A stretch of 30,027 nt of DNA from positions 1 through 30,027 of IMG/VR virus record IMGVR_UViG_3300047557_000257; one strand, 5' to 3'. This DNA comes from a virus. The notes beneath the pieces were generated by a model. It was not told where the DNA came from, ran no database searches, and saw only the letters and a list, made by a program, of their open reading frames with translations. The position numbers were made by a program, and so were the translations under genes. Positions 3,924 through 28,633 of this stretch are shown here, in pieces. Position 1 is the stretch's first letter; every line of letters starts with the position of its first letter.

Positions 3924-4643
3924 CTAGCCTTGTTGTTTAAGTTTTTCTTTCAAATATTCATTAGACCAATACAGTGAGTAGTAGTCATAGTCCACAGAGA
4001 ACCGCTTCATATGCTTGACTAATGCCCCAGTATGGGCGTGCAGTGGAATACCTGCTGCTCTCATACGACGGAAGAAGATGATGTCCTCGCCCACGAAGTG
4101 GTCATCGTTGCCATCACCTGTCTCAAAGAATAATCCTTTGCCAGGGTTAGCCTCACGAATTTTAGGTATGATTGACTTGTGCATTAAGACAAAACCAAAG
4201 CCAGCATTATCAATCTTGACTACCTCATTGTCAGGTAGTGGATGTAGATACTGAATCTGGTATTCGGATATGTCATTGAACAGACAAGGGAATGGCTTCA
4301 TCAGGCTACCCTCATTCTCCTTAGAGATGAAATACACACCACTAACGACAGGGCGATTAACCTTGTCTGCTGTCTTCCATAGTTTAGCCATTGAGTCTAG
4401 GTTCAGCACAATGTCTGAGTCAACCCATAGTAGCCAGTCTGTCTTAATCTTGTCAGCCCAATGGTCAAACAGTACTTGGCGTTGTCTGCCAATCTGATTG
4501 CCTTGAACTCGGATGCTGGTATGTATTGGCATACCGTTGGCTCCGCCAGCAATTACTGCTGTCATTAGTCCTTCAGTAAACTTACCATCGGTGGTGCCGT
4601 TGTCGCACCAACCGATAGCAACTGTATCTGTCTTGCCTATCAT
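3924..4643 (-). CDS. GT-A fold glycosyltransferase
   Basis: Product of 239 aa with family 2-like glycosyltransferase features: IGRQRQVLFDHW (51-62), LLWVDSDIVL with the metal/nucleotide-sugar DSD (75-77), KIDNAGFGFVLMHKS (143-157), and GEDIIFFRRMRAAGI (185-199) with the acceptor-side ED, then a conserved histidine (ALVKH, H211). There are no membrane segments, so it acts in the cytoplasm. Location between adhesin and tail genes suggests it glycosylates a virion protein (fibre or adhesin) or modifies a host surface glycan to block superinfection. Target unknown. The start has AGTAGGGGA upstream. Confidence 0.75.
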   Translation of the reverse strand: MIGKTDTVAIGWCDNGTTDGKFTEGLMTAVIAGGANGMPIHTSIRVQGNQIGRQRQVLFDHWADKIKTDWLLWVDSDIVLNLDSMAKLWKTADKVNRPVVSGVYFISKENEGSLMKPFPCLFNDISEYQIQYLHPLPDNEVVKIDNAGFGFVLMHKSIIPKIREANPGKGLFFETGDGNDDHFVGEDIIFFRRMRAAGIPLHAHTGALVKHMKRFSVDYDYYSLYWSNEYLKEKLKQQG

Positions 4644-4924: not shown

Positions 4925-5731
4925 TTAACTCCAATAAGTAACTCGTGCATAACCTGAACCACCTGCGCCACCAGTTCGTTCAGTTGTGTTAGTGTTATTA
5001 CCTGCACCACCACCACCGCCGCCTGTATTGGCTGTTCCTGCCGTTCCGTTTCCAGGATTATTTCCTTCGGAGCCATTACCTCCGCCGCTTGAGCCCTTGC
5101 CAGCGCCAGCAAAACCTTGTCCGCCACCGCCGCCACCACCATAACCTGCTATTCCAATTCCTCCTGGCTCAGCAGTAGATGCATTTGCTGCAGCGCCGCC
5201 TCCACCGCCTTGCGAACCACGCCCTCCACCAGAGCCCTTGTTTGTTCCACCCTGAAAACCAGGAACACCACCAGCGCCACCACCAGGACCACCGCAACTT
5301 GCATTACCAAGTAATGCGCTTCCACCACCACCACAACCGCCATTAGAGCCAGATGATGAGTTTCCTGCAATAATAGACCCTCCACCTCCACCACCAGTCG
5401 CTGTTGCAATAGAACCAAAAGTTGTATCTCCGCCATTTCCACCATTAACCGATGAATTTCCTGCGGTTCCTCCTGCACCAATGGTTACTGTATAAGATTG
5501 TCCAGGGGTAACAGTAATAACCCTTGACACTATACCGCCACCGCCTCCACCGCCACCTGCGCGAGCAACGTTTTGGTTATCTATGCCACCACCACCTCCA
5601 CCACCTGCTACAAGAAATACTTCAACAGCATTTACATTAGAAGGTGTGACAAATGTGCCTGTACTTGTAAACTCTTGAACTTTTTGTGTTAATGTTGCTG
5701 CGCTAGGCGCGGGAAATACTGAGATACCCAT
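4925..5731 (-). CDS. Glycine-rich tail adhesin
   Basis: A 268-aa protein starting with a short beta region (QEFTSTGTFVTPSNVNAVEV) typical of the glycine-rich fibre-tip family. Long glycine runs (up to eight in a row) alternate with Asn, Ser, Ala and aromatic residues, and it ends in SGYARVTYWS. In known phages such sequences form polyglycine type II sandwiches that present hypervariable receptor-binding loops, as in distal adhesins of T-even-type fibres. It would act outside the particle in host recognition. The ordered ends and low-complexity middle support a structured adhesin rather than noise. Variable loops likely determine host range. Confidence 0.7.
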   Translation of the reverse strand: MGISVFPAPSAATLTQKVQEFTSTGTFVTPSNVNAVEVFLVAGGGGGGGIDNQNVARAGGGGGGGGIVSRVITVTPGQSYTVTIGAGGTAGNSSVNGGNGGDTTFGSIATATGGGGGGSIIAGNSSSGSNGGCGGGGSALLGNASCGGPGGGAGGVPGFQGGTNKGSGGGRGSQGGGGGAAANASTAEPGGIGIAGYGGGGGGGQGFAGAGKGSSGGGNGSEGNNPGNGTAGTANTGGGGGGAGNNTNTTERTGGAGGSGYARVTYWS

Positions 5732-8459: not shown

Positions 8460-10304
8460 TTAGTATGCTCCCATAATTGTCATAATTGTTAAGTCAGCAT
8501 CTGATTCGCCAGACTCATCAATCCAAACATCACCAGTTGTAGGTGAGGTTGGAGTTGTGGTTCCGACAAATATTCTTTTACCAGGGTCAGCATCTGTAAC
8601 TGTAATTGGTGATACTTGTACAGTTCCAGTAGTTGCTGTGCTAGTCCCCATACCAGCAAAGTCAATGTAGTCATAGGTTGCTGCTGCACCACCATCAATC
8701 TTTACTTGGCTACCAGCCTGTACTGTTCCCCATTCTACACCAGTACCTGTAGTTTTTAGATACTGTCCGTTAGTTCCGCTAGTTGCTCCAGCGGTTAGGG
8801 TTCCTGATAACGTTGCATTATCAAGGGTAACTGCAGCAATAGTAGATACTGTAGTTCCAGAGGTAATTACTGTTGTACCGATTGTTGGTGCTAGATAACC
8901 AGAAGGTGCTACCTGCCATTCAAGTCCTGTAGCGGTAGCGGAGTTGACTGCTAGTAAGTATCCATTGGTTGCAGCAACTGTTAGTTGGTCAAAGGTATTT
9001 GTGCCAGTACCTACTAGCAAATCTCCCTTTGCATCAAAGGAAGCAGCAACTGCAGCAGCAGCACTGGCTGCGCTGATAGCAGCAGAGTTAGCAGATGTTA
9101 AAGCAGACGAAGCAGATGTTGCTGCACTTGAAGCAGATGTAGCAGCAGCAGTTGCACTGGCTGCAGCAGATGTTGCGCTAGTAGCAGCAGCGGTAGCGCT
9201 AGTAGATGCGCTATTAGCCGAAGTCAATGCTGAGGCAGCAGAGGTGCTTGCCGAGTTAGCGCTGGTTAAAGCAGATGAGGCTGAGGTAGCAGCCGAAGTA
9301 GCCGAAGTAGCAGCAGCACTAGCGGAGTTAGAAGCCGTAGTAGCAGATGCTGCAGCGCTGGTAGCGCTGGTAGCCGCTGCTGTCGCAGAAGCCGCTGCAG
9401 AGGTTGCAGAGGTGGCTGCTGCTGTGGCTGAGGCAGATGCACTATTGGCGCTAGTTAGGGCGCTAGAAGCGCTTGTAGAGGCGCTAGAGGCACTTGTAGC
9501 GGCAGAGGCAGCACTAGTGGCAGCCGAGGCTGCTGAGGTGCTTGCTGCCGTTGCTGAGCCTAGAATGCTATCTACGTAATCCTTAGGGGTAGCAGAGGAG
9601 GCAACCATACCTGCTGAGGACAGACCTGTGATTACTGGTGAACCTGATATTACAGGGCTTGTCAAGGTTTTATTTGTCAAGGTTTGAGTTGCTGTAGCAA
9701 TGACTACCGTACCTGTTGTGTTAGGTAGAGTGATTGTGTTGTCCTGTGTTGGGTCAACTACAGTCAGGGTAGTTTCGTGAGCATCAGCGGTAGAGCCTTC
9801 AAAGACAATGCTTGCCTCGGCACTAGGAGTGCCAGTAAAGGTAGGGTTAGAAATTGTTGGGCTGGTAAGAGTCTTGTTGGTCAGGGTCTGTGTCTTAAGT
9901 GTACCTACTACGACACCCTCGCCTGAGTTGATACCGTGAAGAGTATGACCTGCTCCAGAGCCATCATTGTAATAAGCGTCAGCCTCAGCGTGTAGGTTGG
10001 CATCACGGTAATCTCTACCGATTGCCATATGTCTTACGACTGCACCTGCTGAGTGGTCTTGAGCAGTTGAGCCATCAATGGCTCTGGTTATTGTAAAGGT
10101 GTTAGTAGATACCGCAGTCGCATCTAAAATTTCTTCGAGCGCTGTATCTGGGTCGATAACCAAAGTGAAGGTGCGACCTGCTGGGATTGTTACACCACCT
10201 AGGAGAGCAGTGCCTGACACCACAGTAATTGATGTAGCACCAGATGTAATAGCACCCGTCAGTGTAGATTGCTGCGAACGCGAGGAGTATTGCCGTGTTG
10301 TCAT
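8460..10304 (-). CDS. Tail fibre with long Ala/Ser/Thr stalk
   Basis: Product of 614 aa. The N-terminal 130 residues are beta-rich and probably attach to the tail. TQTLTNKTLTSP occurs twice (138-149 and 206-217), a motif repeated in many phage fibres. Residues 250-421 are almost only Ala, Ser and Thr with Asn, in short repeats consistent with a trimeric fibrous stalk as in Stf-type side-tail fibres. DAKGDL (424-429) begins a spacer module also present in the 328-aa neighbour. The last 120 residues end in VDADPGKRIFVGTTTPTSP and a WIDESGE motif. It begins 8 nt after the adaptor gene. Confidence 0.75.
   Translation of the reverse strand: MTTRQYSSRSQQSTLTGAITSGATSITVVSGTALLGGVTIPAGRTFTLVIDPDTALEEILDATAVSTNTFTITRAIDGSTAQDHSAGAVVRHMAIGRDYRDANLHAEADAYYNDGSGAGHTLHGINSGEGVVVGTLKTQTLTNKTLTSPTISNPTFTGTPSAEASIVFEGSTADAHETTLTVVDPTQDNTITLPNTTGTVVIATATQTLTNKTLTSPVISGSPVITGLSSAGMVASSATPKDYVDSILGSATAASTSAASAATSAASAATSASSASTSASSALTSANSASASATAAATSATSAAASATAAATSATSAAASATTASNSASAAATSATSAATSASSALTSANSASTSAASALTSANSASTSATAAATSATSAAASATAAATSASSAATSASSALTSANSAAISAASAAAAVAASFDAKGDLLVGTGTNTFDQLTVAATNGYLLAVNSATATGLEWQVAPSGYLAPTIGTTVITSGTTVSTIAAVTLDNATLSGTLTAGATSGTNGQYLKTTGTGVEWGTVQAGSQVKIDGGAAATYDYIDFAGMGTSTATTGTVQVSPITVTDADPGKRIFVGTTTPTSPTTGDVWIDESGESDADLTIMTIMGAY
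9042..9557. repeat. Degenerate repeat coding for Ala/Ser/Thr fibre stalk
   Basis: Degenerate short repeats (plus strand GCAGCA, GCTGAGG, GCGCTAG types) cover residues 250-421 of the fibre gene. The low complexity also creates a long open frame on the opposite strand (8944-9579), which I take as a by-product. Repeats of this kind recombine easily, so stalk length may vary among relatives. Confidence 0.7.
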
Positions 10305-13339: not shown

Positions 13340-14542
13340 CTAAAGAGCAGCGATTGAGGAACCAGATGTAATACGGAACAACGCTTCGTCACGGTAGACT
13401 GCGAAGCCAAGTACGCCGTACCAGCCCATTGGGCGGAAGCGCATCAACTTATCAGTTACGTTACCGATAACTACGTGTGGCTCTTCAGCAACGGCTTCTG
13501 CCATAGCCTGAGCACCGCACACGATTGTGTTGAATACACGTGTTACTGGAGTTACAGTGATTGTTGTAGAAACAGTTACTGCACCAGTGTTTGCTGTATC
13601 AACAGTGAAGGTTGTGGTTGAACCAGATGTTGAGATTGCAGTAATCTTTGCGCCTGAAGCGATACCTGTTCCAGCAATCTTGTCGCCAACCTCAGCGCGG
13701 GTTGCGATAACAGCAGATGAAGCAACACCGAAGGTGAAGCCTGCTGAAGTACCTGCAACGGTTACAGGGGTTGTAGCAAGAGCAGACTGGTCTGCACCTG
13801 TCTTAGCATTGTATAGACGTGGGGACTCAACGAAGAATGCACCTTCGTAAGTTCCGATTTCGCCTGCCCAAATGTTGTTAACAGCAGGTACTGTTTGTGC
13901 GTGAACGAAGTTCCAGCCCAAGTTTCCAGATTCTGCACGAAGGTCGTGTGAAACCTCTGGGTGGATACCAGCCCAGAAATCGCTACCACGACGAGCCTTA
14001 GCCTTGTTAGCGCGTAGTTTAGCAACTGCGCGGCGGATGTCTGCAGAATCGATTGTATCAGCAGCATCTACGTTAGCAACAGCAGTCGCGTTACCTGCGA
14101 AGATATTGTTTGTACCAGAGCGTAGAGTTGTCATTGCAACTGTGTCGATTGAGTCAGCAAGGTTGTAAGCAATGATGTTTGCAATCGCTGGGTCGACATC
14201 TGCAAGTGAGAACAACTCAAGTGCGCGGGTTACTAGTACTGCATTACCGTACTCATTAAGAGTAATGGTTACTGAAGTAGGTGTTGTTAGTGCAACTGCA
14301 TCTGGGTCTGTTGTTTCAGTCAGAGTTCCAGTTGCCTGGTCTAGGTCAACGTAGCGTTGTAGAACAACTGTTGAACCTGGGAATGCTTGACGGGCAGGGC
14401 GCTTATCTGCTACAGAACGGATTAGAGGTTCTGAACGGAGAGCGAACTCGAGAAGGCGGTCATATGCCTTCTGTACGAGACCTGCGCCACCAACTGTTCC
14501 ACCGAGCGAACCGCTCGATGTATCTGTATAGGCGTTTGACAT
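13340..14542 (-). CDS. Major capsid protein, N4 gp56-like HK97 fold
   Basis: A 400-aa protein that fits the N4-gp56-type major capsid family: GSTVVLQRYVDLDQATGTL (56-74), TLTETTDPD (73-81), an ITLNEYGNAVLVTRALEL strand-helix part (93-110), DIRRAVAKLRANKAKARRGS (169-187), AGIHPEVSHDLR (191-202), and ALFRITS near the C-terminus. Residues about 257-334 (13541-13774) are a Thr/Ser/Val-rich beta segment interrupting the core, likely an inserted surface domain. The protein builds the icosahedral shell. It follows the scaffold-like gene with AGGAGA upstream of the ATG. Confidence 0.85.
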   Translation of the reverse strand: MSNAYTDTSSGSLGGTVGGAGLVQKAYDRLLEFALRSEPLIRSVADKRPARQAFPGSTVVLQRYVDLDQATGTLTETTDPDAVALTTPTSVTITLNEYGNAVLVTRALELFSLADVDPAIANIIAYNLADSIDTVAMTTLRSGTNNIFAGNATAVANVDAADTIDSADIRRAVAKLRANKAKARRGSDFWAGIHPEVSHDLRAESGNLGWNFVHAQTVPAVNNIWAGEIGTYEGAFFVESPRLYNAKTGADQSALATTPVTVAGTSAGFTFGVASSAVIATRAEVGDKIAGTGIASGAKITAISTSGSTTTFTVDTANTGAVTVSTTITVTPVTRVFNTIVCGAQAMAEAVAEEPHVVIGNVTDKLMRFRPMGWYGVLGFAVYRDEALFRITSGSSIAAL

Positions 14543-14576: not shown

Positions 14577-15044
14577 TTAACCTTGCTGACGAAGCAGTGA
14601 CAAAATTTCATCTGCAGAACTTGCGTTCTGTAGTTTCATCTCAAAGTCTTCTGCTTTGTCTGGCGTAATCGCACGAGAGGTGAAAGCATCTTGCTGACGG
14701 AGTGCCGCAATATCTGCTTTACTTTCTGAATCGTCTGATGTCTTAAGTCCAAAGAGGTCGCCATTATCCTCGAGCCAGGTTGAAACTGTCTCCTCGTTAA
14801 TGTCTTCCAAGTCTTTCATAATAAGACGTGCAGCCTTAGCATTTACGCCTTTCTTTTCCAGTACCTGACGGACGGTCTGCTCACGCTGCGCCTTGGTAAA
14901 AGTCTCAAGTTGCTCTGTAAGTTCCTTGATACGCTTCTCATCTGCTCGCTTAGCCTTGCGTAACTTCTTTACTAAGTCACCGCCATCGAGTTGTGAATCG
15001 TTATCTAGGTCATCGTCTTCGTCGTCCCAGTAATTGTTGCTCAT
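14577..15044 (-). CDS. Capsid scaffolding protein
   Basis: The ATG at 15044 (MSNNYWDDEDDDL) has GGAGGT at good spacing; the in-frame GTG 12 nt upstream is less likely. The 155-aa product has a very acidic N-terminus, a coiled coil (about residues 25-60, LRKAKRADEKRIKELTEQLE), and an acidic, Gln-rich end. This composition and the place immediately before the capsid gene are typical of phage scaffolds, which guide procapsid assembly and are then lost, often by proteolysis. The HslV-like protease in this operon could be the enzyme that removes it. Confidence 0.65.
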   Translation of the reverse strand: MSNNYWDDEDDDLDNDSQLDGGDLVKKLRKAKRADEKRIKELTEQLETFTKAQREQTVRQVLEKKGVNAKAARLIMKDLEDINEETVSTWLEDNGDLFGLKTSDDSESKADIAALRQQDAFTSRAITPDKAEDFEMKLQNASSADEILSLLRQQG

Positions 15045-15164
15045 AGCAACCTCCACCCTTCTATCTATTGTTAGTCGTGAGCCTCAGTATCTATTCGGGG
15101 AAATAGGCTGGCTCTCACTACCAGTCTTATACGCCTAGCGGTGCTGGTCGACCCGCTAAGGATT
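15045..15164 (-). other. Structured gap before the scaffold gene
   Basis: A 120-bp interval without an ORF, unusual in an operon with almost no spaces. It holds TAGCGG/CCGCTA (15136-15141 / 15153-15158) and a nested structure GTGAG/CTCAC (15077-15081 / 15114-15118) around CTATT/AATAG. A weak -10-like TATAAG lies at 15126-15131 on the minus strand without a clear -35. It could be an mRNA processing site, partial terminator or internal promoter raising capsid output. Confidence 0.4.
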
Positions 15165-18334: not shown

Positions 18335-19077
18335 TACGCACCTGACGCATTCTGTGATAGCCAACTAGCAAAGTTAATACGTTGCTGACGCTCATAATCT
18401 TCGCCTAGAATGTTCTGACCAGTCTTAGTTACTATTTCTGCTACACCAGCAGCGCTAGGTCCAGGGGTAACTTCAGTAATGGTAGTCCCCTCCTTCTTGC
18501 CTTTACGGGTTGTAGTAGTTGCTGACTTGTTTAAGTATTCATCTACTGCTTGAAATAACTGTGACTTTTGAGCGTCGTCAAGGCTTTCAAAAGTACGACC
18601 AAACTTTTTTGAAAGACCATCATTAATCCAGTCACGAATCTGGGCACCACCATAGTTGGTAATAGTCTTAGATGTAGTAGGTCCTGTGTAACCTTCTTGT
18701 TGCTTCTTGCTCTTGGCATACCACTCAAGGTATTCTTCAGGGGTAATCTTTACTTGACCCTGAGAGTTCTTAAACCACTCAGATGCACCTTTAACAGCCA
18801 TAGCCCATAGGTTCGGTGAGGTTAAATCAGTAACATCTGTATAGCCTAAGGCTCTAGCCTTTGCTACAAACGCTGCTCTTTGCTTAGCGTCCCAAGTATA
18901 AGCCTGGGCAATAGCGTCAGCAAGGTTTGTAGTCTTTGCTATCTTGATTGTTTTCTTTCCGCCTCTAGGACCAGCAGGCACAACAGCGTCAGCCTCACCT
19001 AGGTATACGTCTCCACCTACACCACTAGAGCCGCCACCACTAATCCTACTCTTTAATATGTCTGTGGGTTGAGTCAT
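18334..19077 (-). CDS. Virion-associated protein, unknown
   Basis: This 247-aa protein has a Gly/Ser start (SGGGSSGVGGD), a basic segment (GGKKTIKIAKTT), a helical part with ARALGYTDVTDLTSPNLW, KITPEEYLEWYAKSKKQQEG, and a Gln/Asn-rich end. No catalytic motif or membrane segment is visible. Both ends overlap neighbours by 1 nt (TGATG at 19077, TAATG at 18334), so it is made together with the 312-aa and 1563-aa proteins and probably belongs to one complex. Confidence 0.45.
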   Translation of the reverse strand: MTQPTDILKSRISGGGSSGVGGDVYLGEADAVVPAGPRGGKKTIKIAKTTNLADAIAQAYTWDAKQRAAFVAKARALGYTDVTDLTSPNLWAMAVKGASEWFKNSQGQVKITPEEYLEWYAKSKKQQEGYTGPTTSKTITNYGGAQIRDWINDGLSKKFGRTFESLDDAQKSQLFQAVDEYLNKSATTTTRKGKKEGTTITEVTPGPSAAGVAEIVTKTGQNILGEDYERQQRINFASWLSQNASGA

Positions 19078-22000
19078 CAGAAGCCTTTCGTGAGGTCATC
19101 TTTTTCAAGAATGCGTGTGTAGATTCGTTCAAATGTAACATCTTGGTCTAACAAGTCACCAACAAATATGTCCCAAGCCTCACGTAAATCTGCGTTAGCC
19201 TGAGCATTAATTGACTTGTATTGACGCTTTGCTAGTTCTTCACGAACTATTCTGCGTCCTTCAAGATAGTCACTAAATGTTTTCATATCTTGGCGACCAG
19301 CAAGGCGTGGGTCTTGAACCCACTTGCTAGCGGTACGCAAGAACTTATTGACTGATTCAATGTCAATATCTCCATAAGCCTTACCCCATCCAGGGTATTG
19401 GTTAGATAGATTCTCAACGAACTCAGCCTTTGCTGCGACCAAATCAGGTGCTGCACTTAGTGTCTTAAGACCTCGATTAATACGCTCAGCCTCAAGAAGT
19501 GCTATACCTTTACGGTATTCCTTCCAGCCTACACCTGCCTGAGTTTCTTCAATAGCCTCATAAGGGTCTTTGCGCCCTCTGTAATTGATTGTTGAACCAG
19601 GTGCTACTGGGTCTTCGAACTGATTGCCATAGATTGTAGGTGAGAACTCACCAGCATTGGCATCTCCTACAAGGAACCAACCATACTCAGGGTTCTCAGC
19701 AATCAAATCTGATAGTTGCTGTGAGCGCTCATAGGCGCTTAGTGTTGCTGAAATACCAGTATTGTTCTTTGAAAGGCTGGTTGTAAAGTAAAAGTAATCT
19801 GCTCCATAGCGGTTATAGAATACATCTGCTGCGGTATCAGGGTTTTCTCTGCGCAGTTTTTGATACTCATCAATGTAGAACTGATAAGGGCTACGTGTGT
19901 TTGTAGCAAAAGGTAGGACAAGTCGGGTAGCAACTTCAAGGGCAAGGATTTTCATTACCTTGTCGTTGACTTCCTTCTTAGTTGGAGGGGTATCACGAAG
20001 CCCTTGGTCGTATTTAGCGTTCTCTTCCGCCATTACAAGGACAGTTAGACGGCTTCTCATAGGGTCTTCTTCATTCATCAAAGCAAGTGCTTTACGGGCT
20101 GCAGCAGACTGAACTACCAAATCTCTAATGCTTCTATCTTGTGCGCCATAAGGAAGAATCTCAGATACAAGTCTTGTCTTCTCTGACTGTGGGTAACGAG
20201 AAACAATCTCTGATGCAGCAAACTGGGCGAACCAGCCTGCGCCTGGGTTCCACCAAGCACCACCTTGGAAGATAAGGTTTAGTGAAGCCTTAGGAATCTG
20301 TAGTGGTCTATCAACTATACCTAGGCTCATACGCTTGGCCCACTCAGCAGGGATGTTGATGTATGTCAAACCGTCGCGCTCTTCAGTCATACCGTTTCTA
20401 TCGGGTGACTCGTAAGCAATCTGTAGTTTGCGTAGGGCTGCTGGGTTATTTAGACCAATGCGTAGCCACTTCTCAGCCACATCGGAGAATGCTCCAAAGA
20501 ATGGGAAGACATACTTGAGTGTATATGCAGCATCTGTTTTCTCTGCCACATCGTAAACTGTTCGACGCATCTCGGCTCTAGCCCATTGGCGAGCCTTGTT
20601 CTCTAGGCTGCGAAGGTAGCGAGAGTCAACCATATCGCCCTTTGTAGTTTCAATAGCCTGCTCTACAAGAGCATTCAAGCGTCTGCGATATAGGTTTACG
20701 TACAAAGGTGAACGTACAAGTTTAGATTCAGGAACCTCGCCTGCCCACTTGTAGAAAGCGTTAGCCACCTTAGAGGACATCTGTGTAACGTAGTTACCAC
20801 CTAGTGCTTCTATTGTTTGAGCACCGTTAACTGATGGATAAGAGTCAGCGTTATCGCCAAAGAACTTGACAATGTCATCCTCATTAAAGTTTCTCTTGAG
20901 AAGAAGTTGACGCATTTCATCATTAGGCAGTAGATGACGGGTATTCTCAAAGTTCTCTTCGGCTAATTCTCTAGCAGTCTTACCCATTCTTGTGAATGGA
21001 CGTAGGATTCTGCGACCCTCATCTGAGGTTTGTAGCCACATTTCAACTTCATCTACAGTGCTGCCCTCAAGGAACTTACGTCCAATTTTAGAGCCCTTAA
21101 CCTGGCGGTTAACAACACGTAGATAGGCTTCTGCATAGTTAGCATCTCTACCATTTACACGGACGAAGTCTCCAGTTAACTGCATTGAGTTACTGATACT
21201 GTCCTTAACCTGGCTTAGGCTGGTATCAACTACCTGACCTGCTGAGGCTACGAACTTATCGTTGTAATATGCAGCCTGCTCAGGGGTTAGACCCTTTGCA
21301 TCTTGTAACTTAAGACCCAAAATTTCAATCTCGCCAATACCATACTGAGCGTTAGGCTCAAGTTTTTCTTTGTTTAGGATTCTATCAATCTCGTTAATCT
21401 CAGCATCAATCTGGTTTGGGTCATCAACCAGTTCTCTAGCAGCAAGGAGTTTGTTTCTTTGAGCCTCTAGTTTGGCTCGCTCTGCTAATTCTAGTACATC
21501 ATCTGCTGCATTCTTAGACTTGCCACCACTAAGTAGGTTAGCAATCTTGTTCATTGAACCTTGTGCTGCAGTCTCAAGCATTGTCCAAGCACCAAGAACG
21601 CTGAATACGCGAAGGTTGCCCTCTGTTAGGTTACGTACTGGATAGCCTAGACGGGCTAGAACCTGAAACTTTAGGAACTGGTCAAGGGCATCAGCCAAAT
21701 CACCAGTAGCGTTTTTCATTCTCATAGCACCGCTATAAGCGTTGTAAAGAACAGGTGCTCCAGTTGTAGCATCCTTAACCATCTCGGCACGAGTTGCCCT
21801 CTTTAGAACCTTGTACATTGTGTCAATGTCAAGTGTAGGCATCTGCTTAGCCAACTGAGTTTCATTAATAGGCGTAGAGAATACGTGTGCTACTCCATCT
21901 TCACCCATAACTGGCTTGGCACCTACTGGTCCACCAGTCTTAGGGTCAATAGCACCTGTATACAGACGCTCTTTAATCAGGTTAGTTCCCTGTTGACGCT

Positions 22001-23768
22001 TGTTAGCGAACAAGGAATAAGCCTTGGAAACTTCAAAGTCGCTGTAGCCGAACTGTTTTGCAACTACTGAAAATAGTTCACGCTCAATCTCTGCGTGAAC
22101 AAAGGCTCTTTCATCTGCATCCACAGCCCCAGCATACTTAGCGAATAACTCGTTCCTACGCTCTACTGTGAATGAAGTTGACTTCTTGAATCGAGCCTCT
22201 GCACGAGCAAGTTCTTGCTTTAAGTCTTTGACCTTTTCTACGTTAGCGCCATTCTTAGGGTCTAACTTAGAAGCCTCATCAATCTTAGATTTCAAAATAT
22301 CAATTTCAGTTTCGTAAACTTTGCGCTGTCTATCGGATAAACCAACTACACGGCTTAACTGATTGTCAATAGTCTGAACACTCTGGTTGTCTGTATAGTC
22401 AATCCAGCCACGAGGACGCTTGTAGAAGAAGCCAGTATGGAATCTAACCATAGTTCCAGAGTTAGAACGGAAGTCAATAAAGTTCTGGCTATTAACAAAT
22501 GTTCTGCGGATGTCGGAACCTAGGTCTACGAATGGAACTTTCTTAGGGTCCATTGAACCAATAAGTGCTAGATTCTTGTGAATCTTAGCAATATCCTCTT
22601 CGTACTCTTTGATAAGTTCTATGTGCTTCTCGTATTCAGCACCGTCATTCATATAGTTGAAAGACATCTGACCATCTTCGGCAGGCTTGCCTGTCAAGAA
22701 CTTCATCTGTGGTACTTCGTCACGTAGTGACGCAACCTGTGCTGCTAGAAGGTCGGACTGGTTAGCCAACTGCACGAAGGCATCTTCGTCGCCCATTGCC
22801 ATATGTATAATGTTTGTTTTAGCAGCGTGACGAGCAGTCTTATCTTCAATCTTATTTGCGGTAGTAAGAAGGTTCGCAATAATTCCAGGATTAGATGACT
22901 CACGTACAGCCTTGATACGGAAGAAATCTTGTTCAACCATACCGTCAGTACGCTCAAGGAAATCGTTGAATGTGCCCTTAAGTCTTTGCTGGCGCTTAGT
23001 TAGGTCTTCTGCGCCAGAGATAATTTTGCCGAACTCATCTGCGCTCTTAAAAGCGTAGCGACCAGCACGATAAACCTGGACACCCTTACCAGCAATAACA
23101 AATGGGTCGATAACAAATCGAGATACAACATCTCCAAACCAAGAACCTACACGGCCTGCGGTCTGTTCTTCGAATGCAGCCTTACGCTGATTACCATCAT
23201 AAATATTAAAGTTGTTGGAACCAAACAATAGGTTCTCTTTGATAAACTCATCTCCAAGGCCAAGGTTAAATTTATCGAATACTCCGATGCTTCCTTGTGC
23301 GATTGTGTTAAGCATCATCTGACCTGGAGAAATCTTGCCTGCTTCTTGCCAGGACTTACGGATATTCTCTATATCGAACTGACCCTTCCATAGAGGGTTG
23401 TTCTCATCTGCTACACCAAGGCCAAATACAACAGCCTGTGCTGCTAGGTTGTAACCTTTTTCTAAAGTCTCGCTTGTCTTCTGCCAGAAACCTTTAGCCT
23501 CACCTGGCACTGCAGGCATATACTGCTTAAGTCTTGCGTCATAATACTCAGACTTAAAACTACGTGTTGTCGGATTAAACGACTGGATAAGTGCAGCACG
23601 GTCTTTTTGTGGGATTGCTGTTGCAAAATCTATAGGTAAAGCGTATGAAGATACTTCTGCTGGCTTTTGATAATACTTATTGAACTCACCTAAAGTATCA
23701 AATGTAGAAGGGTTAGATGAAGTTATCTTTGCTTGATACGCTAATATCGCTTTTTGTCTGTCGCTCAC
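19077..23768 (-). CDS. Giant virion/ejected protein (polyvalent-like)
   Basis: Product of 1563 aa, the largest in the window. It starts with GTG in a GTGA overlap. Mostly helical, with charged coiled-coil-like stretches about residues 490-560 and 790-830. A segment near residue 710 (LARLGYPVRNLTEGNLRVF) and one near 1086 (YVFPFFGAFSDVAEKWLR) resemble parts of large polyvalent or ejection proteins that phages inject with their DNA. No HExxH, kinase or ADP-ribosyltransferase signature was found. It lies between portal and capsid genes, where such proteins are made before head assembly. A structural core protein without enzyme activity is equally possible. Confidence 0.5.
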   Translation of the reverse strand: MSDRQKAILAYQAKITSSNPSTFDTLGEFNKYYQKPAEVSSYALPIDFATAIPQKDRAALIQSFNPTTRSFKSEYYDARLKQYMPAVPGEAKGFWQKTSETLEKGYNLAAQAVVFGLGVADENNPLWKGQFDIENIRKSWQEAGKISPGQMMLNTIAQGSIGVFDKFNLGLGDEFIKENLLFGSNNFNIYDGNQRKAAFEEQTAGRVGSWFGDVVSRFVIDPFVIAGKGVQVYRAGRYAFKSADEFGKIISGAEDLTKRQQRLKGTFNDFLERTDGMVEQDFFRIKAVRESSNPGIIANLLTTANKIEDKTARHAAKTNIIHMAMGDEDAFVQLANQSDLLAAQVASLRDEVPQMKFLTGKPAEDGQMSFNYMNDGAEYEKHIELIKEYEEDIAKIHKNLALIGSMDPKKVPFVDLGSDIRRTFVNSQNFIDFRSNSGTMVRFHTGFFYKRPRGWIDYTDNQSVQTIDNQLSRVVGLSDRQRKVYETEIDILKSKIDEASKLDPKNGANVEKVKDLKQELARAEARFKKSTSFTVERRNELFAKYAGAVDADERAFVHAEIERELFSVVAKQFGYSDFEVSKAYSLFANKRQQGTNLIKERLYTGAIDPKTGGPVGAKPVMGEDGVAHVFSTPINETQLAKQMPTLDIDTMYKVLKRATRAEMVKDATTGAPVLYNAYSGAMRMKNATGDLADALDQFLKFQVLARLGYPVRNLTEGNLRVFSVLGAWTMLETAAQGSMNKIANLLSGGKSKNAADDVLELAERAKLEAQRNKLLAARELVDDPNQIDAEINEIDRILNKEKLEPNAQYGIGEIEILGLKLQDAKGLTPEQAAYYNDKFVASAGQVVDTSLSQVKDSISNSMQLTGDFVRVNGRDANYAEAYLRVVNRQVKGSKIGRKFLEGSTVDEVEMWLQTSDEGRRILRPFTRMGKTARELAEENFENTRHLLPNDEMRQLLLKRNFNEDDIVKFFGDNADSYPSVNGAQTIEALGGNYVTQMSSKVANAFYKWAGEVPESKLVRSPLYVNLYRRRLNALVEQAIETTKGDMVDSRYLRSLENKARQWARAEMRRTVYDVAEKTDAAYTLKYVFPFFGAFSDVAEKWLRIGLNNPAALRKLQIAYESPDRNGMTEERDGLTYINIPAEWAKRMSLGIVDRPLQIPKASLNLIFQGGAWWNPGAGWFAQFAASEIVSRYPQSEKTRLVSEILPYGAQDRSIRDLVVQSAAARKALALMNEEDPMRSRLTVLVMAEENAKYDQGLRDTPPTKKEVNDKVMKILALEVATRLVLPFATNTRSPYQFYIDEYQKLRRENPDTAADVFYNRYGADYFYFTTSLSKNNTGISATLSAYERSQQLSDLIAENPEYGWFLVGDANAGEFSPTIYGNQFEDPVAPGSTINYRGRKDPYEAIEETQAGVGWKEYRKGIALLEAERINRGLKTLSAAPDLVAAKAEFVENLSNQYPGWGKAYGDIDIESVNKFLRTASKWVQDPRLAGRQDMKTFSDYLEGRRIVREELAKRQYKSINAQANADLREAWDIFVGDLLDQDVTFERIYTRILEKDDLTKGF

Positions 23769-24217
23769 AGTAAGTTAGCCCTCAACAATCTCACATAATT
23801 GCGGAATGCCTGTGAGGAGTTGGGGTTAAGTGCTGCTGCTTCAAGGGCTGGTAGATAACTCATTAGACGCTGACGGTCTACATCTGTATCTTCATTCTTT
23901 GGTAGCGTAAGCGCTTCAGGTCCTGCTCCTGGTCCCACAGGTATACCCGTTGTAACTGGCTCTTCTGGATTTTGAGTCGGAGCCGTTATCGGTGTCACTG
24001 GCGGAAGGTTTGCCATCATCGGTGCTCGTGCTGTTGGTGATGGTGCTTTAGCCATAGTTGCTGCTTGCTGTTGCTCCATCAATTCTTGTCCTTGTCCATA
24101 AGTTCCGCCAGAGTAATACTTTGCACCCTGACGACCTGACTGCCCATTGCCACCAGTGGCTGATACGTTGGCAGGATTATTCTGCGGTGCAGTTGGTCGC
24201 ATTCCGCCTCTAGCCAT
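23765..24217 (-). CDS. Pro/Gly/Ala-rich disordered protein
   Basis: Product of 150 aa. Most of it is low-complexity: RGGMRPTAPQNNPANVSATG, YYSGGTYGQGQELMEQQQ, then a Pro/Ala/Thr run. Only the last 45 residues (VDRQRLMSYLPALEAAALNP and onward) look ordered and helical. Such proteins in phage head operons are often scaffold-like or flexible internal proteins. Start shares TAATG with the upstream gene; the end overlaps the giant gene by 4 nt. Confidence 0.5.
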   Translation of the reverse strand: MARGGMRPTAPQNNPANVSATGGNGQSGRQGAKYYSGGTYGQGQELMEQQQAATMAKAPSPTARAPMMANLPPVTPITAPTQNPEEPVTTGIPVGPGAGPEALTLPKNEDTDVDRQRLMSYLPALEAAALNPNSSQAFRNYVRLLRANLL

Positions 24218-24444
24218 TATTTCTCCTCTGGTGTGTATGAGTATTCTTCAGCGCTCAATAACATTCCCTTGGCAAGCCAAGGATTCATATTGTCGCTTAC
24301 ATCTGTCATTAAATATCGAGTGCCTTCATAGTCAGACCACTCGCTAACGAGAACCCATCCTGTGCAGATTTGGCTCTCTGAATCTTCTAGTTCTTCAGCA
24401 AGTATCCGCATTGCTGCTTCTATTGCATCATTGAACTTGCTCAC
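24217..24444 (-). CDS. Small conserved protein next to the protease
   Basis: The 75-aa product has a helical start (AIEAAMRILAEELED) followed by a beta part TGWVLVSEWSDYEGTRYLM, then WLAKGMLLSAEEY. I recall similar short proteins with a WVLVSEW-type strand in actinophages, with no function known. The ATG overlaps the stop of the HslV-like gene by 4 nt, making a tight pair. A regulator or adaptor of the protease is an attractive but untested idea. Confidence 0.55.
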   Translation of the reverse strand: MSKFNDAIEAAMRILAEELEDSESQICTGWVLVSEWSDYEGTRYLMTDVSDNMNPWLAKGMLLSAEEYSYTPEEK

Positions 24445-24977
24445 TTGTATTGTTCTTCTGTATAGAACGGTGGTGAAGAATAAGCACTAACTTTGGACGC
24501 GATTTCCATAGCCACTAATGGCTCGGCTCCTGCGTGTAGTGCGCCTAGCGCAAAAGGTCCACCTGAACCGATTGCATAAATATTATCTTCGCTCTTCATA
24601 ACTGACAAGTCTTCGTCAACATCAAATAGTTCTCCACCGACTGCCATCAAGAACTGGAATCTCATAGATTCTTTCTTGTCATCGTCGAATGAATAACCGT
24701 TGTCAGTTAAGCATTTACGCAAGGAAGGCATCGCCTTAACAATCATATAGCGATACGGGTCTTTTTTATCCTTCTGGGTAAACTGTGGTGGCATCCATAT
24801 GTTCTGGGCTATGTCGCAAGGAACTACTTCTCCTGCTCCTGCAACTAATATCGGACCACGTTTAGCAATCTTCTTCATTACTTTGTGAGCGTATACTCGA
24901 CCTGAATCATCAATGACTCTGCTATCAGCAACTAATATGCTTTTAGAGTCATATTCAATACCGATAATCGTTGTCAT
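24441..24977 (-). CDS. HslV/proteasome-like Ntn-hydrolase (candidate maturation protease)
   Basis: Product of 178 aa, the length of HslV. It begins M-TTIIGIEYDSKSILVADSRV. Counting from the Thr exposed by Met removal, T1, D17 and R19 fall exactly where proteasome-type peptidases have catalytic residues. K31 in AHKVMKK can supply the K33 role with a two-residue shorter loop. IYAIGSGGPFALGALHA (about 132-148 of the precursor) matches the HslV segment AIGSGGPYA. There is no propeptide and no HslU-like ATPase nearby. It lies between portal and capsid genes, where phages usually encode the prohead protease, and no other protease is seen there. SD AGGAGGGG is strong. Fold assignment is confident; a role in scaffold or capsid cleavage is inference. 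Confidence 0.8.
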   Translation of the reverse strand: MTTIIGIEYDSKSILVADSRVIDDSGRVYAHKVMKKIAKRGPILVAGAGEVVPCDIAQNIWMPPQFTQKDKKDPYRYMIVKAMPSLRKCLTDNGYSFDDDKKESMRFQFLMAVGGELFDVDEDLSVMKSEDNIYAIGSGGPFALGALHAGAEPLVAMEIASKVSAYSSPPFYTEEQYK

Positions 24978-24991
24978 TGTCCCCTCCTAAA

Positions 24992-26761
24992 TTATCGTCG
25001 TCGAATAGTTCTTACGCTTGCTGTTGGTTCTCCGCCTCCAGATATACCTGAAAGCAAACTCATAATGTCTGGTGCTCCACCTTGCTGTTCTCCAGGGGTA
25101 GGAAGAGCGCCTCCTGCCAGTGCTTCGGGAGCAGGGGACGGTTGCTCAACCATTTGTTCGGCACCAGCAGGAGGAACCTGTTCTGCAGGAGCGAAGACTT
25201 CCTCAATCGCATCCTCAAGCGCCTGTCCCTTTTGGCGAGCCTTGATAACTGCAGCAACCTTACGCACAACTTCAGAGGCATCTTGTCCTTCAGTTGCCAT
25301 TGCTGGAATTGCTTGTGTGTACTGTGTAAGTGAACCAAGAAGTGCGGTACGCATATTCTCGATTTCAATCTTTTCAAGTTCTTGAGTTACGTTAACTGTA
25401 AACGGAAGTTCGCGCATTGCTAAATCTTTGGAGATAAGTCCTCCACCTAAAGCCTGTAGCATAAAGATAAGACCTTGCGCTGGGTTAAGACCTGCAAGCA
25501 TTCCATAACGAACGTCTGCTGAGTAGTCACCCTTAATGTCTTTGCGTGGGCTGTAGGTAATTTCGTAAGGTGAACCTGCGTCCACACCACGAATTGTCTT
25601 TTCTTTAGGGAAAATCTTTTCATCAACCATAAAGCAAATCTGAATTACATCGCGCAAAGCGCTCGCAAAGATTGCTTGTGCTGATTTAACCTGGGTATCA
25701 AAGGCACCCATAAGAGCCTGTACGCCCTGACCAGTAACGATAGAGGCATCAATATTGCCTGTACGTCCTTCAGGGTAACGAGCACCAACACGCATTTCTT
25801 GATTAAGCAATGTCTGCTCAGTAAATGCGCCCGCTGGAATAGGAAGTTCTACACGGCGCACACCTGCTGGGTTGGATGTACGGATAACCGCATCTCCACC
25901 AAGTTGCAAATTCTGTACATCGGTTGGTAGAACGATTGGAGACTGTACAGATTTCTCTGCTGCCTCCATTGCAAGCAACGCAAAGCGGTTGCGAAGCAAC
26001 TGAATACCAATGATGTCATCGAATTGACCACGCATCTCACCATCAACAGATGGCTTACGTGCGACAACAATCATCATCTTGCCCAATGGATTCTTTGCTT
26101 TTGAAAGAACTAGATTATTTTTGTCTGGGAGATAGATTATTGATTGGTCTTCGTCGTAATAGCGAACCATCTCAACCTGCTGAGTCAAATCTTGCTCGTA
26201 CCGTAGAGGTCCAAGAAGTTCAATCTCAAGTTCAGGGAACATAGCAACAAGTTCGCCAAGTGTCATTGAGTAGCGTTTTGCAAATGCCGTGCATCGTCCG
26301 TAGCGGTCAAACTCAGGGTAAGCACCTATTGGGTTTTCTAGGCGAATGCGTGGCAGTTTTGCTTCTTCATCCAGTTCAATTACGAACGGGAGGAATCCAT
26401 ATGTTAAGTACCAGTCCGCTCCTTGGTACATCTGTACAGCCAAATCTGAGTGAGCAAAATAATTAGAGGCAATGCGAGTACGTGTATCAGCAAACTTACG
26501 AGCCCTATCAGAAACCGAGTTCGCTGCATTGCAGTTGACCGCTGGTAGTGGAGCCATAACCTCTGAAAGGTCTCGCGCAACAATATCCACAAAATTTGCA
26601 ACGACATTTGCATCTACTCCGTCTGGAAAGAAGTCAGGATAGACTGATGCAATTTGACCTTTGCGGACAGCAAGTACGTCAAGGTTGCGAGCGTCTCTAT
26701 CGACAGCACGATAGCGCAGCGATTCTACGCGGGCTGCGACTTGTTCCATTGAGAGTGCCAT
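24992..26761 (-). CDS. Portal protein
   Basis: Product of 589 aa placed right after the terminase. The N-terminal half mixes helices and strands (NLDVLAVRKGQIASVYPDFF, then IVARDLSEVMAPLPAVNC). The middle has GAYPEFDRYGRCTAFAKRYS and a long helix ALLAMEAAEKSVQSPIVLP. About residues 335-375 (VGARYPEGRTGN and ASIVTGQGVQALMGAFDTQ) look like the portal wing/stem region. The last 70 residues are Pro/Gly/Gln-rich and probably flexible. Size, gene order and helix pattern fit a dodecameric portal that threads DNA into the head. It starts 6 nt after the terminase stop. Confidence 0.75.
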   Translation of the reverse strand: MALSMEQVAARVESLRYRAVDRDARNLDVLAVRKGQIASVYPDFFPDGVDANVVANFVDIVARDLSEVMAPLPAVNCNAANSVSDRARKFADTRTRIASNYFAHSDLAVQMYQGADWYLTYGFLPFVIELDEEAKLPRIRLENPIGAYPEFDRYGRCTAFAKRYSMTLGELVAMFPELEIELLGPLRYEQDLTQQVEMVRYYDEDQSIIYLPDKNNLVLSKAKNPLGKMMIVVARKPSVDGEMRGQFDDIIGIQLLRNRFALLAMEAAEKSVQSPIVLPTDVQNLQLGGDAVIRTSNPAGVRRVELPIPAGAFTEQTLLNQEMRVGARYPEGRTGNIDASIVTGQGVQALMGAFDTQVKSAQAIFASALRDVIQICFMVDEKIFPKEKTIRGVDAGSPYEITYSPRKDIKGDYSADVRYGMLAGLNPAQGLIFMLQALGGGLISKDLAMRELPFTVNVTQELEKIEIENMRTALLGSLTQYTQAIPAMATEGQDASEVVRKVAAVIKARQKGQALEDAIEEVFAPAEQVPPAGAEQMVEQPSPAPEALAGGALPTPGEQQGGAPDIMSLLSGISGGGEPTASVRTIRRR

Positions 26762-26767
26762 AGTTTC

Positions 26768-28633
26768 CTATCCGTATGTTTCTTGCCATTGCTCGGCAAA
26801 GGCTTCATCAAGATTTATTTCCATTCGGCGCTGAGACTGTGCTCTAGTTGCCCAACGGTTTTGCACCCAGCGCTGTTGCTGAGTTCCTGTTTGCATCATT
26901 TCTCTGACGCGGATGATTGCAAACCACAATGCCATCACACAGTCAGTTGCGTTTCTGGTATCAGGCTTCCAAGTTATTAGTTGTTGCACTAGCGCCTTAA
27001 GACCCTCTGAGCCTTCGTTGCTAGGTAGTTCTATTAAATTGTTATCCTGGAATCTTCCATCTCTAAGATTGCCAAACAAACCTGACATAGAAGCCACACC
27101 AAAGTTAGTATCCCACTTATTCTTACCAGTGAAGTGAGAGTTGAGTTGGCAGCCGTGCATCGACAACCAGTTACGCAACCTGTCATCGAGGGCGTATGCT
27201 TTCTGGTGGGCGTTGATTTCAATTCGTATTTCCTGTGGCTTGTATCTTTGAACCCAGTCTTCAATCAGGTTCTGAATCTTGTCTGGTGTTGGGTCTGTCA
27301 TATTGACACAATCAAGAATATAAATCATTGAGTCAGCCTTGTTGTAAGTAACTACAACGGCTGCGGTGTTACCTGTCATAGCAGGGTCTAGCCCTATAAC
27401 GGTATAGCCCTCGACCTGTCGTGGATGACCTGCAGCACCTGGTTTAAGCGGTCCGCGCTTTCGCATACCGTTGACACATCCTGCAACTGCTGCTGGCGGA
27501 AAGATTGCGTCTTCGACAACGTCTTCTTGTTGATAGACCATAGCCCAGACAGAAGGGGCGACTTCGCTTCTTCTAGTGAAGAGAGCGCCTCCGTCCCATT
27601 TTGGATATAGTCCTTGTTCATCAGGTTCATCATTCTCGCCCTCAGGGCGGTCAGTCTTGGCCCACAACGTTTTCCAGTTGTCTGGCTTCTCATCAAACTC
27701 AAGGACCGCTGGCATCGCACAATATGTGAAAGGCGATTTACCACCAGTCCAGTTAGAGCCGTCCCGTATCTGTTTGTATAAGTCGACAGGAGCAACACGG
27801 GTCCCTACGATAAGTAGTTTCCCGTGTCGTCCTAAACGCGTGATTACTTCTTTTTGAAGCCATTCAATTTGCTTCTCCCACTCGTGGGCATTGGAGTTCA
27901 TCACGACATCGTCTAGGATAATCAGGTCGGCACGAGCACCGTAAATTTGAGAACCAAAGCCTAGGGCTTGTACCGTAGGGTCTTTTTCTCCAGAGTCTCG
28001 ACCTGTACCTAGATAAATCATATCGGCGGACCACGTAGGAGAGTCCGCCTTATATCCACCGTTAGGACCGAAAGCCGTTTGGAGTTTAATCCAGGACGGA
28101 TGGCTTAGTCTGGTCTTGATGGCTGAAAGGAACTTACGCGCCATACCCTGAGTCTTGGAGACCAGGATAATGCGAATGTTAGGGTTTGTGGCAATTCGGT
28201 AGGTGACGTAGTTAATCGTCAGCACCGTGCTCTTGGCGTGCTCAGGGGGTACGTTAATCAGTACTCGGTTGGCAGCGCCTTGCTCGTAGGTCATAGACGG
28301 ATGTAACCATCTTGGCTCCCTACCCTCAATCAGGTCAATCCAGTCGAGTTGGTGGGGGAACAACTTGGTGTCTAGGAACTCTTCTGAGAATTGCTCAAAG
28401 GAAATATCCTTCAGGTTGGCTAGGTCAGCCTTGACCCCTTTACCCTCAAGTCTTGCCTTATCGGCTCGTTCCTTGAAGTTGGCGTCAGCCATAGTCCATT
28501 GTCGGAAGGTAACCTCATTACGGTTAACCGACTCCATAGCAGCCTTGATGGTGCTACCTTGGCTCAGTTGGTGGAGCACTCGCTCCATAGCCTCGCCCTT
28601 TGGGATGTCCACTTTCCCAGGTCTGCGTCCCAT
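26768..28633 (-). CDS. terL: Terminase large subunit
   Basis: Product of 621 aa. The ATPase domain has Walker A VPPEHAKST (128-136), Walker B ADLIILDDVV (235-244) and a coupling motif VGTR (276-279). The RNase H-like nuclease has GLDPAMTG (D416), IEIN (E472) and ATDCVMALW (D564). The protein packages DNA into the procapsid through the portal. The first 65 residues (STIKAAMESVNRNEVTFRQW) look like the helix-turn-helix of small terminase subunits; no separate small subunit gene is present in the window. Start has AGGAG four nt before the ATG; a late promoter lies about 200 nt upstream. Confidence 0.93.
   Translation of the reverse strand: MGRRPGKVDIPKGEAMERVLHQLSQGSTIKAAMESVNRNEVTFRQWTMADANFKERADKARLEGKGVKADLANLKDISFEQFSEEFLDTKLFPHQLDWIDLIEGREPRWLHPSMTYEQGAANRVLINVPPEHAKSTVLTINYVTYRIATNPNIRIILVSKTQGMARKFLSAIKTRLSHPSWIKLQTAFGPNGGYKADSPTWSADMIYLGTGRDSGEKDPTVQALGFGSQIYGARADLIILDDVVMNSNAHEWEKQIEWLQKEVITRLGRHGKLLIVGTRVAPVDLYKQIRDGSNWTGGKSPFTYCAMPAVLEFDEKPDNWKTLWAKTDRPEGENDEPDEQGLYPKWDGGALFTRRSEVAPSVWAMVYQQEDVVEDAIFPPAAVAGCVNGMRKRGPLKPGAAGHPRQVEGYTVIGLDPAMTGNTAAVVVTYNKADSMIYILDCVNMTDPTPDKIQNLIEDWVQRYKPQEIRIEINAHQKAYALDDRLRNWLSMHGCQLNSHFTGKNKWDTNFGVASMSGLFGNLRDGRFQDNNLIELPSNEGSEGLKALVQQLITWKPDTRNATDCVMALWFAIIRVREMMQTGTQQQRWVQNRWATRAQSQRRMEINLDEAFAEQWQETYG

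Follow-up and report, generated by a model that had tools for sequence, protein, structure and literature searches.

Why should a phage encode a proteasome-like peptidase directly behind its portal gene? The question is raised by the stretch of viral DNA analysed here (the window, 30,027 nucleotides), in which such a gene directly follows the portal gene and g75 comes next (Table 1). An initial annotation, made from the sequence alone, had read this gene as an HslV/proteasome-like peptidase in the place of the prohead protease, and had suggested that it might mature the capsid or remove the scaffold, or else degrade host proteins by docking on a host unfoldase. The first of these claims is borne out by the analysis: the open reading frame is real, and lies on the minus strand. 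The second is not, and we found instead a strict alternation, at a fixed place after the portal gene, between the peptidase and an unrelated small protein, sp86.

Table 1. Features of the window, and examples of sp86 on other contigs
Feature	Position	Strand	Remarks
Peptidase, proteasome-family (HslV/BPH-like) threonine peptidase	24441..24977	minus	ATG at 24977; 178 aa
Ribosome-binding site of the peptidase gene	24981..24988	minus	AGGAGGGG, strong, read from the sequence
g75	24217..24444	minus	75 aa; start overlaps the peptidase stop
Portal protein	24992..26761	minus	PHROG_104
Terminase large subunit	26768..28633	minus	PHROG_38 and PF17289
g150	23765..24217	minus	PHROG_8200; first gene past the exchangeable cassette; present in all members; homologous to Immanuel3 gp07
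1563-aa protein	19077..23768	minus	PHROG_10618; homologue of Immanuel3 gp09
Scaffold-like protein	14577..15056	minus	PHROG_7813; weak DUF4355 and head-scaffold matches
Major capsid protein	13340..14542	minus	PHROG_1357
sp86 examples	L118:8912-9169, L139:9601-9867, L192:702-950, and others

The protein begins with M-T-T-I-I-G and carries GSGGP at residues 137-141. In alignment, Thr2, Asp18, Lys36 and Gly49 of the ORF correspond to Thr1, Asp17, Lys33 and Gly47 of the proteasome, with a two-residue loop insertion accounting for the shift of the lysine. The proteasome active site that had been read from the letters (a Thr directly after the Met, Asp17, a lysine near position 33 and the GSGGP segment) is thus present. 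AlphaFold predicts an Ntn fold with high confidence (pLDDT 93.9, pTM 0.88), in which the first helix pair spans residues 51-60 and 74-92. The best Foldseek match in the PDB is the beta-proteobacterial proteasome homologue (BPH) of Thiobacillus (5ovs, E=2e-11, TM 0.75), followed by HslV and 20S beta subunits, and the profile search agrees that BPH is the nearest solved structure (E 5e-9). The protein also matches PHROG_1040, ‘peptidase HslV family’, over residues 1-175 (E 5e-26). As expected of a member of the Pfam Proteasome family (PF00227), it combines the Ntn fold with the N-terminal Thr and Asp17, Lys33 and Gly47, and it scores 22.7 bits, marginally above the cut-off of 22.4.

The catalytic residues are strongly conserved. 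Thr2, Asp18, Lys36 and Gly49 are invariant across an alignment of 33 relatives that are 33-89% identical. In a wider alignment of 140 distinct relatives plus the window peptidase, position T1 is Thr in 138 rows, Ser in one and a gap in two; D17 is Asp in every row that carries a letter; and K33 is Lys in 138 rows, the apparent change to Ser in the remaining three being a two-residue alignment slip. The initial annotation had also pointed to Asp17 and Arg19 at proteasome spacing. Both are present in the window peptidase, but only Asp17 is conserved, with Arg19 replaced by Gln in about 20% of relatives. Compared with close relatives, for which synonymous sites are unsaturated, dN/dS is 0.04-0.09, which shows that the gene is under purifying selection. 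The profile matches, the modelled fold, the conserved catalytic residues and the low dN/dS together indicate a real, constrained and probably active proteasome-family (Ntn-hydrolase) peptidase; the fold and the conservation rule out a chance resemblance.

Narrower assignments were tried and mostly rejected. The score is 23.1 bits against an equivalog cut-off of 157.75 for HslV proper in TIGR03692 and 23.7 against 137 in NF003964, and for the 20S proteasome beta subunit it is 27.8 bits against 224 (TIGR03634). Two phage-borne subfamilies, PPH and AAH, have been described by Fuchs et al. 2021 (PMC8665760). PPH proteins have about 140 residues and lack helix H2 (PMC8665760), whereas the window peptidase has 178 and its model includes that helix. 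The best explanation is a group-I (BPH/HslV-like) peptidase of the proteasome family, a placement made by comparison with BPH through its solved structures. Scans of genome contigs with the HslV profile and with a terminase profile yielded no relatives in bacteria, and a literature search on Planktophila proteasomes and on phage VpV262 produced nothing useful.

The window phage has cultured relatives. The Planktophila phages LanE43AprF5 and LanE43AprE7 (OX376641 and OX376640, respectively; 39 kb) were isolated on ‘Ca. Planktophila’ LanE-43 (PMC10202952). Their portals are 82-85% identical to that of the window, and the gene order of LanE43AprF5 is identical to that of the window. Because these phages are such close relatives, the window phage probably infects freshwater Actinobacteria. 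Streptomyces phage Immanuel3 (Beephvirinae) is related more distantly; its terminase-to-capsid module is homologous and conserves the order portal, g150, 1563-aa protein, g247, g322, g743, capsid protein and g99. In the window itself, the scaffold-like and capsid genes are 9-10 kb from the peptidase gene and not adjacent to it. Further along, we noticed a 614-aa and probably fibre-like protein with long Ala/Ser/Thr-rich repeats of the SAATSA type (8460-10304), a glycine-rich protein (4925-5731; PF21722, 7e-23) and, adjoining the latter, a glycosyltransferase-like protein with weak Pfam matches (3924-4643).

The gene that follows the portal was surveyed with two scans whose seeds were portal proteins and not the genes in the slot, and the best 80 loci of each were analysed. 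The portals found are 76-100% identical to the seeds, and most contigs are fragments. Among the best 80 loci of the first scan, the post-portal gene is HslV-like in 69, sp86 in 8 and cut off in 3; among the best 80 of the second, the corresponding numbers are 37, 40 and 3. An HslV-like gene therefore occupies the slot in 106 and sp86 in 48 of 154 portal-seeded loci (best 80 per scan), with the reservation that some contigs may recur in both scans. Not one of these 154 loci has both genes, neither gene or a third kind of gene. When all scans are pooled, again taking the best loci per scan, 158 distinct portals comprise 118 with HslV and 40 with sp86. The exclusion extends to the rest of the genome where long records could be searched: a profile search detected no HslV anywhere in the sp86 records, four of which are 37-39.5 kb long (HslV controls were positive in 12 of 12 cases), and no sp86 was found in 12 long HslV records or in LanE43AprF5.

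The sp86 protein is unrelated to HslV. It is 82-90 amino acids long; its head is basic, its short core helical and its tail acidic, and its structure is predicted with low confidence (pLDDT 67.5). It has no Pfam match, PHROGs give only weak families of unknown function, and no match was found among named phages. However, sp86 is also present in phage contigs without a window-type portal, where it lies after endolysin-like and small membrane-protein genes; these lysis-side copies are 74-80% identical to the sp86 in the portal slot of contig L118.

The two alternatives have replaced each other repeatedly. When the presence of HslV or sp86 is mapped onto a 72-portal tree, 7 changes are required, 6 of which are forced by well-supported branches. 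In the pair of loci L044 and L145, the portals are 97.6% identical and the flanks 94% identical over 3.2 kb and 89% over 6.1 kb, and HslV plus g75 versus sp86 are swapped exactly from the end of the portal gene to the start of g150. Four HslV types with less than 50% identity between them occupy the slot, and HslVs that are only 29% identical sit under portals that are 91% identical. A single origin of the slot HslVs is not supported, as sequences from early regions nest among them; long branches blur the deep order. By eye, no clear allele-specific feature distinguishes the portal C-terminal tails of HslV-positive and sp86-positive phages. The g75 gene accompanies HslV in 66 of 122 cases and sp86 in 0 of 50. 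It overlaps HslV translationally, goes along with it in about half of the loci, and may serve the peptidase as an adaptor or a regulator. The slot is an exchangeable cassette: it holds either one of four HslV types, to which g75 may be added, or sp86, which is unrelated to them.

HslV homologues also exist outside this setting. In every annotated phage that we examined, the homologue is among early or metabolic genes. Microbacterium phage LeeroyJenkins encodes an HslV-like gp16 outside its head genes in addition to a true prohead protease, gp25, and DSL-LC01 likewise combines a capsid protease with an HslV-like gene located away from the head genes. In a second actinophage lineage, two of the four HslV types recur, beside a gene for an MRE11-like phosphoesterase (L057:10531-11565, minus strand, and L241-L320). 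HslV is plainly accessory there, being present in 14 of the best 80 loci, on either strand; no sp86 was found in the sampled flanks of this lineage. We also observed that ORF47 of Vibrio phage VpV262 (L394:20743-21303), which is annotated as hypothetical and lies outside the head genes, encodes a divergent proteasome-like protein.

We consider it most probable, at roughly two chances in three, that the window gene encodes a host-directed or quality-control threonine peptidase that is carried in an exchangeable cassette and does not act on the phage head. A host-facing role is the best guess because the head can do without the gene, which has often been exchanged and is found in more than one phage lineage, and the swapping of very dissimilar HslV types under nearly constant portals is as expected for a gene involved in host interaction. 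The peptidase would be made from the terminase-portal operon, and removal of the Met would expose Thr1. By analogy with BPH and HslV, its subunits probably assemble into a ring or double ring, inside which peptides or unfolded proteins could be cut. During infection it would attack proteins of the host or proteins that are misfolded. As had been suspected, the phages appear to have no ATPase partner, since no AAA_2 (HslU/Clp-type) ATPase was detected in five near-complete HslV-positive records; the peptidase may therefore work without ATP or be fed by a borrowed host unfoldase. In addition, the fact that sp86 always replaces HslV suggests that there is a function for which the phages depend on one of the two. 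A tentative extension, to which we give somewhat less than even odds, is that HslV-like peptidases and sp86 are two exchangeable ways past a single host barrier, the one destroying and the other blocking the same host factor, and that these phages of abundant freshwater Actinobacteria need one of the two. It counts against a host-facing role that the post-portal place is constant despite the exchange, which may reflect a link to the portal or to packaging.

An alternative is that accessory genes simply find a tolerant landing site behind the portal, and that the functions of HslV and sp86 are unrelated. The accessory status of HslV in the second lineage would agree with this, as would the occurrence of both genes in other actinophage contexts, and a slot with room for one gene yields exclusion by itself. 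However, the slot was neither empty nor filled by a third kind of gene in any of the 154 portal-seeded loci (best 80 per scan), and neither gene was found elsewhere in near-complete genomes that carry the other. We regard this explanation as unlikely.

Slightly less probable still is that the peptidase is a prohead protease acting on scaffold, portal or capsid, i.e. that an Ntn-hydrolase has replaced the usual S14, S49 or S78 enzymes and that sp86 does the job in another way. In 106 of 154 portal-seeded loci (best 80 per scan) HslV is the gene next to the portal, and the remainder always have the same other gene, which could be read in this way. Moreover, the initial annotation was correct that classical prohead proteases are missing, as we found no ClpP (S14), S49 or S78 protease in the near-complete relatives searched. 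Nevertheless, position after the portal is insufficient to name a protease a capsid protease, and in close relatives the same head forms without HslV. With 48 of the 154 portal-seeded loci (best 80 per scan) lacking HslV in the slot, the gene is not a constant companion of the head module, and both the scaffold and the capsid N-termini are alike in HslV-positive and sp86-positive phages. The slot alternates between HslV and sp86, and Immanuel3 has other small ORFs there and encodes no HslV, sp86, S78, ClpP or S49. Homologues that lie outside head modules, or even coexist with true prohead proteases, and HslV types only 29% identical that serve nearly identical heads, also argue against this role. 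The absence of HslV from near-complete sp86 records, in which scaffold and capsid N-termini are unchanged, and from Immanuel3 shows that it is dispensable for the head module, and together with the flank-matched swap this led us to reject capsid maturation as the best explanation; that the peptidase is a capsid protease is not supported.

An equally improbable idea is that the ring is a decoy, which binds a host AAA+ unfoldase or proteasome parts and so blocks host proteolysis with catalysis being secondary: it would fit the lack of a phage-encoded AAA_2 ATPase in the five near-complete HslV-positive records and the ability of sp86, which is small and has no enzyme fold, to stand in for HslV, but a decoy does not need Thr1, Asp17 and Lys33, which are almost always kept in 140 distinct sequences.

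Proteasome homologues of phages have been known only from annotation, with no function assigned so far, and the either/or rule provides a first handle on their role. Because natural close pairs differ by HslV plus g75 versus sp86, function is testable in cultured Planktophila phages, and sp86 offers a short, well-conserved entry point. Among known systems, BPH (5ovs/5ovu) resembles the window peptidase in fold, catalytic residues and compact subunit, but is only 20-24% identical to it, and is a bacterial gene outside any phage portal operon. HslV of HslUV shares the fold, Thr1/Asp17/Lys33, the GSGGP segment and the lack of a long propeptide; however, the window peptidase is far under the HslV equivalog cut-offs (23 bits versus 137-158), and the phages have no HslU-type ATPase. 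The Beephvirinae, represented by Immanuel3, have the module in the same order as the window, but without HslV, sp86 or a known prohead protease. The peptidase itself belongs to an already known kind, as PHROG_1040, PPH and AAH are phage-encoded proteasome homologues without an unfoldase, just as in the window phage (PMC8665760). What is new here is the strict HslV-or-sp86 rule and the fixed place after the portal. The 2021 survey reported neither an informative gene neighbourhood nor any phage specific to Actinobacteria that carries AAH (PMC8665760), whereas the phages described here are an actinophage family in which HslV has a fixed context.
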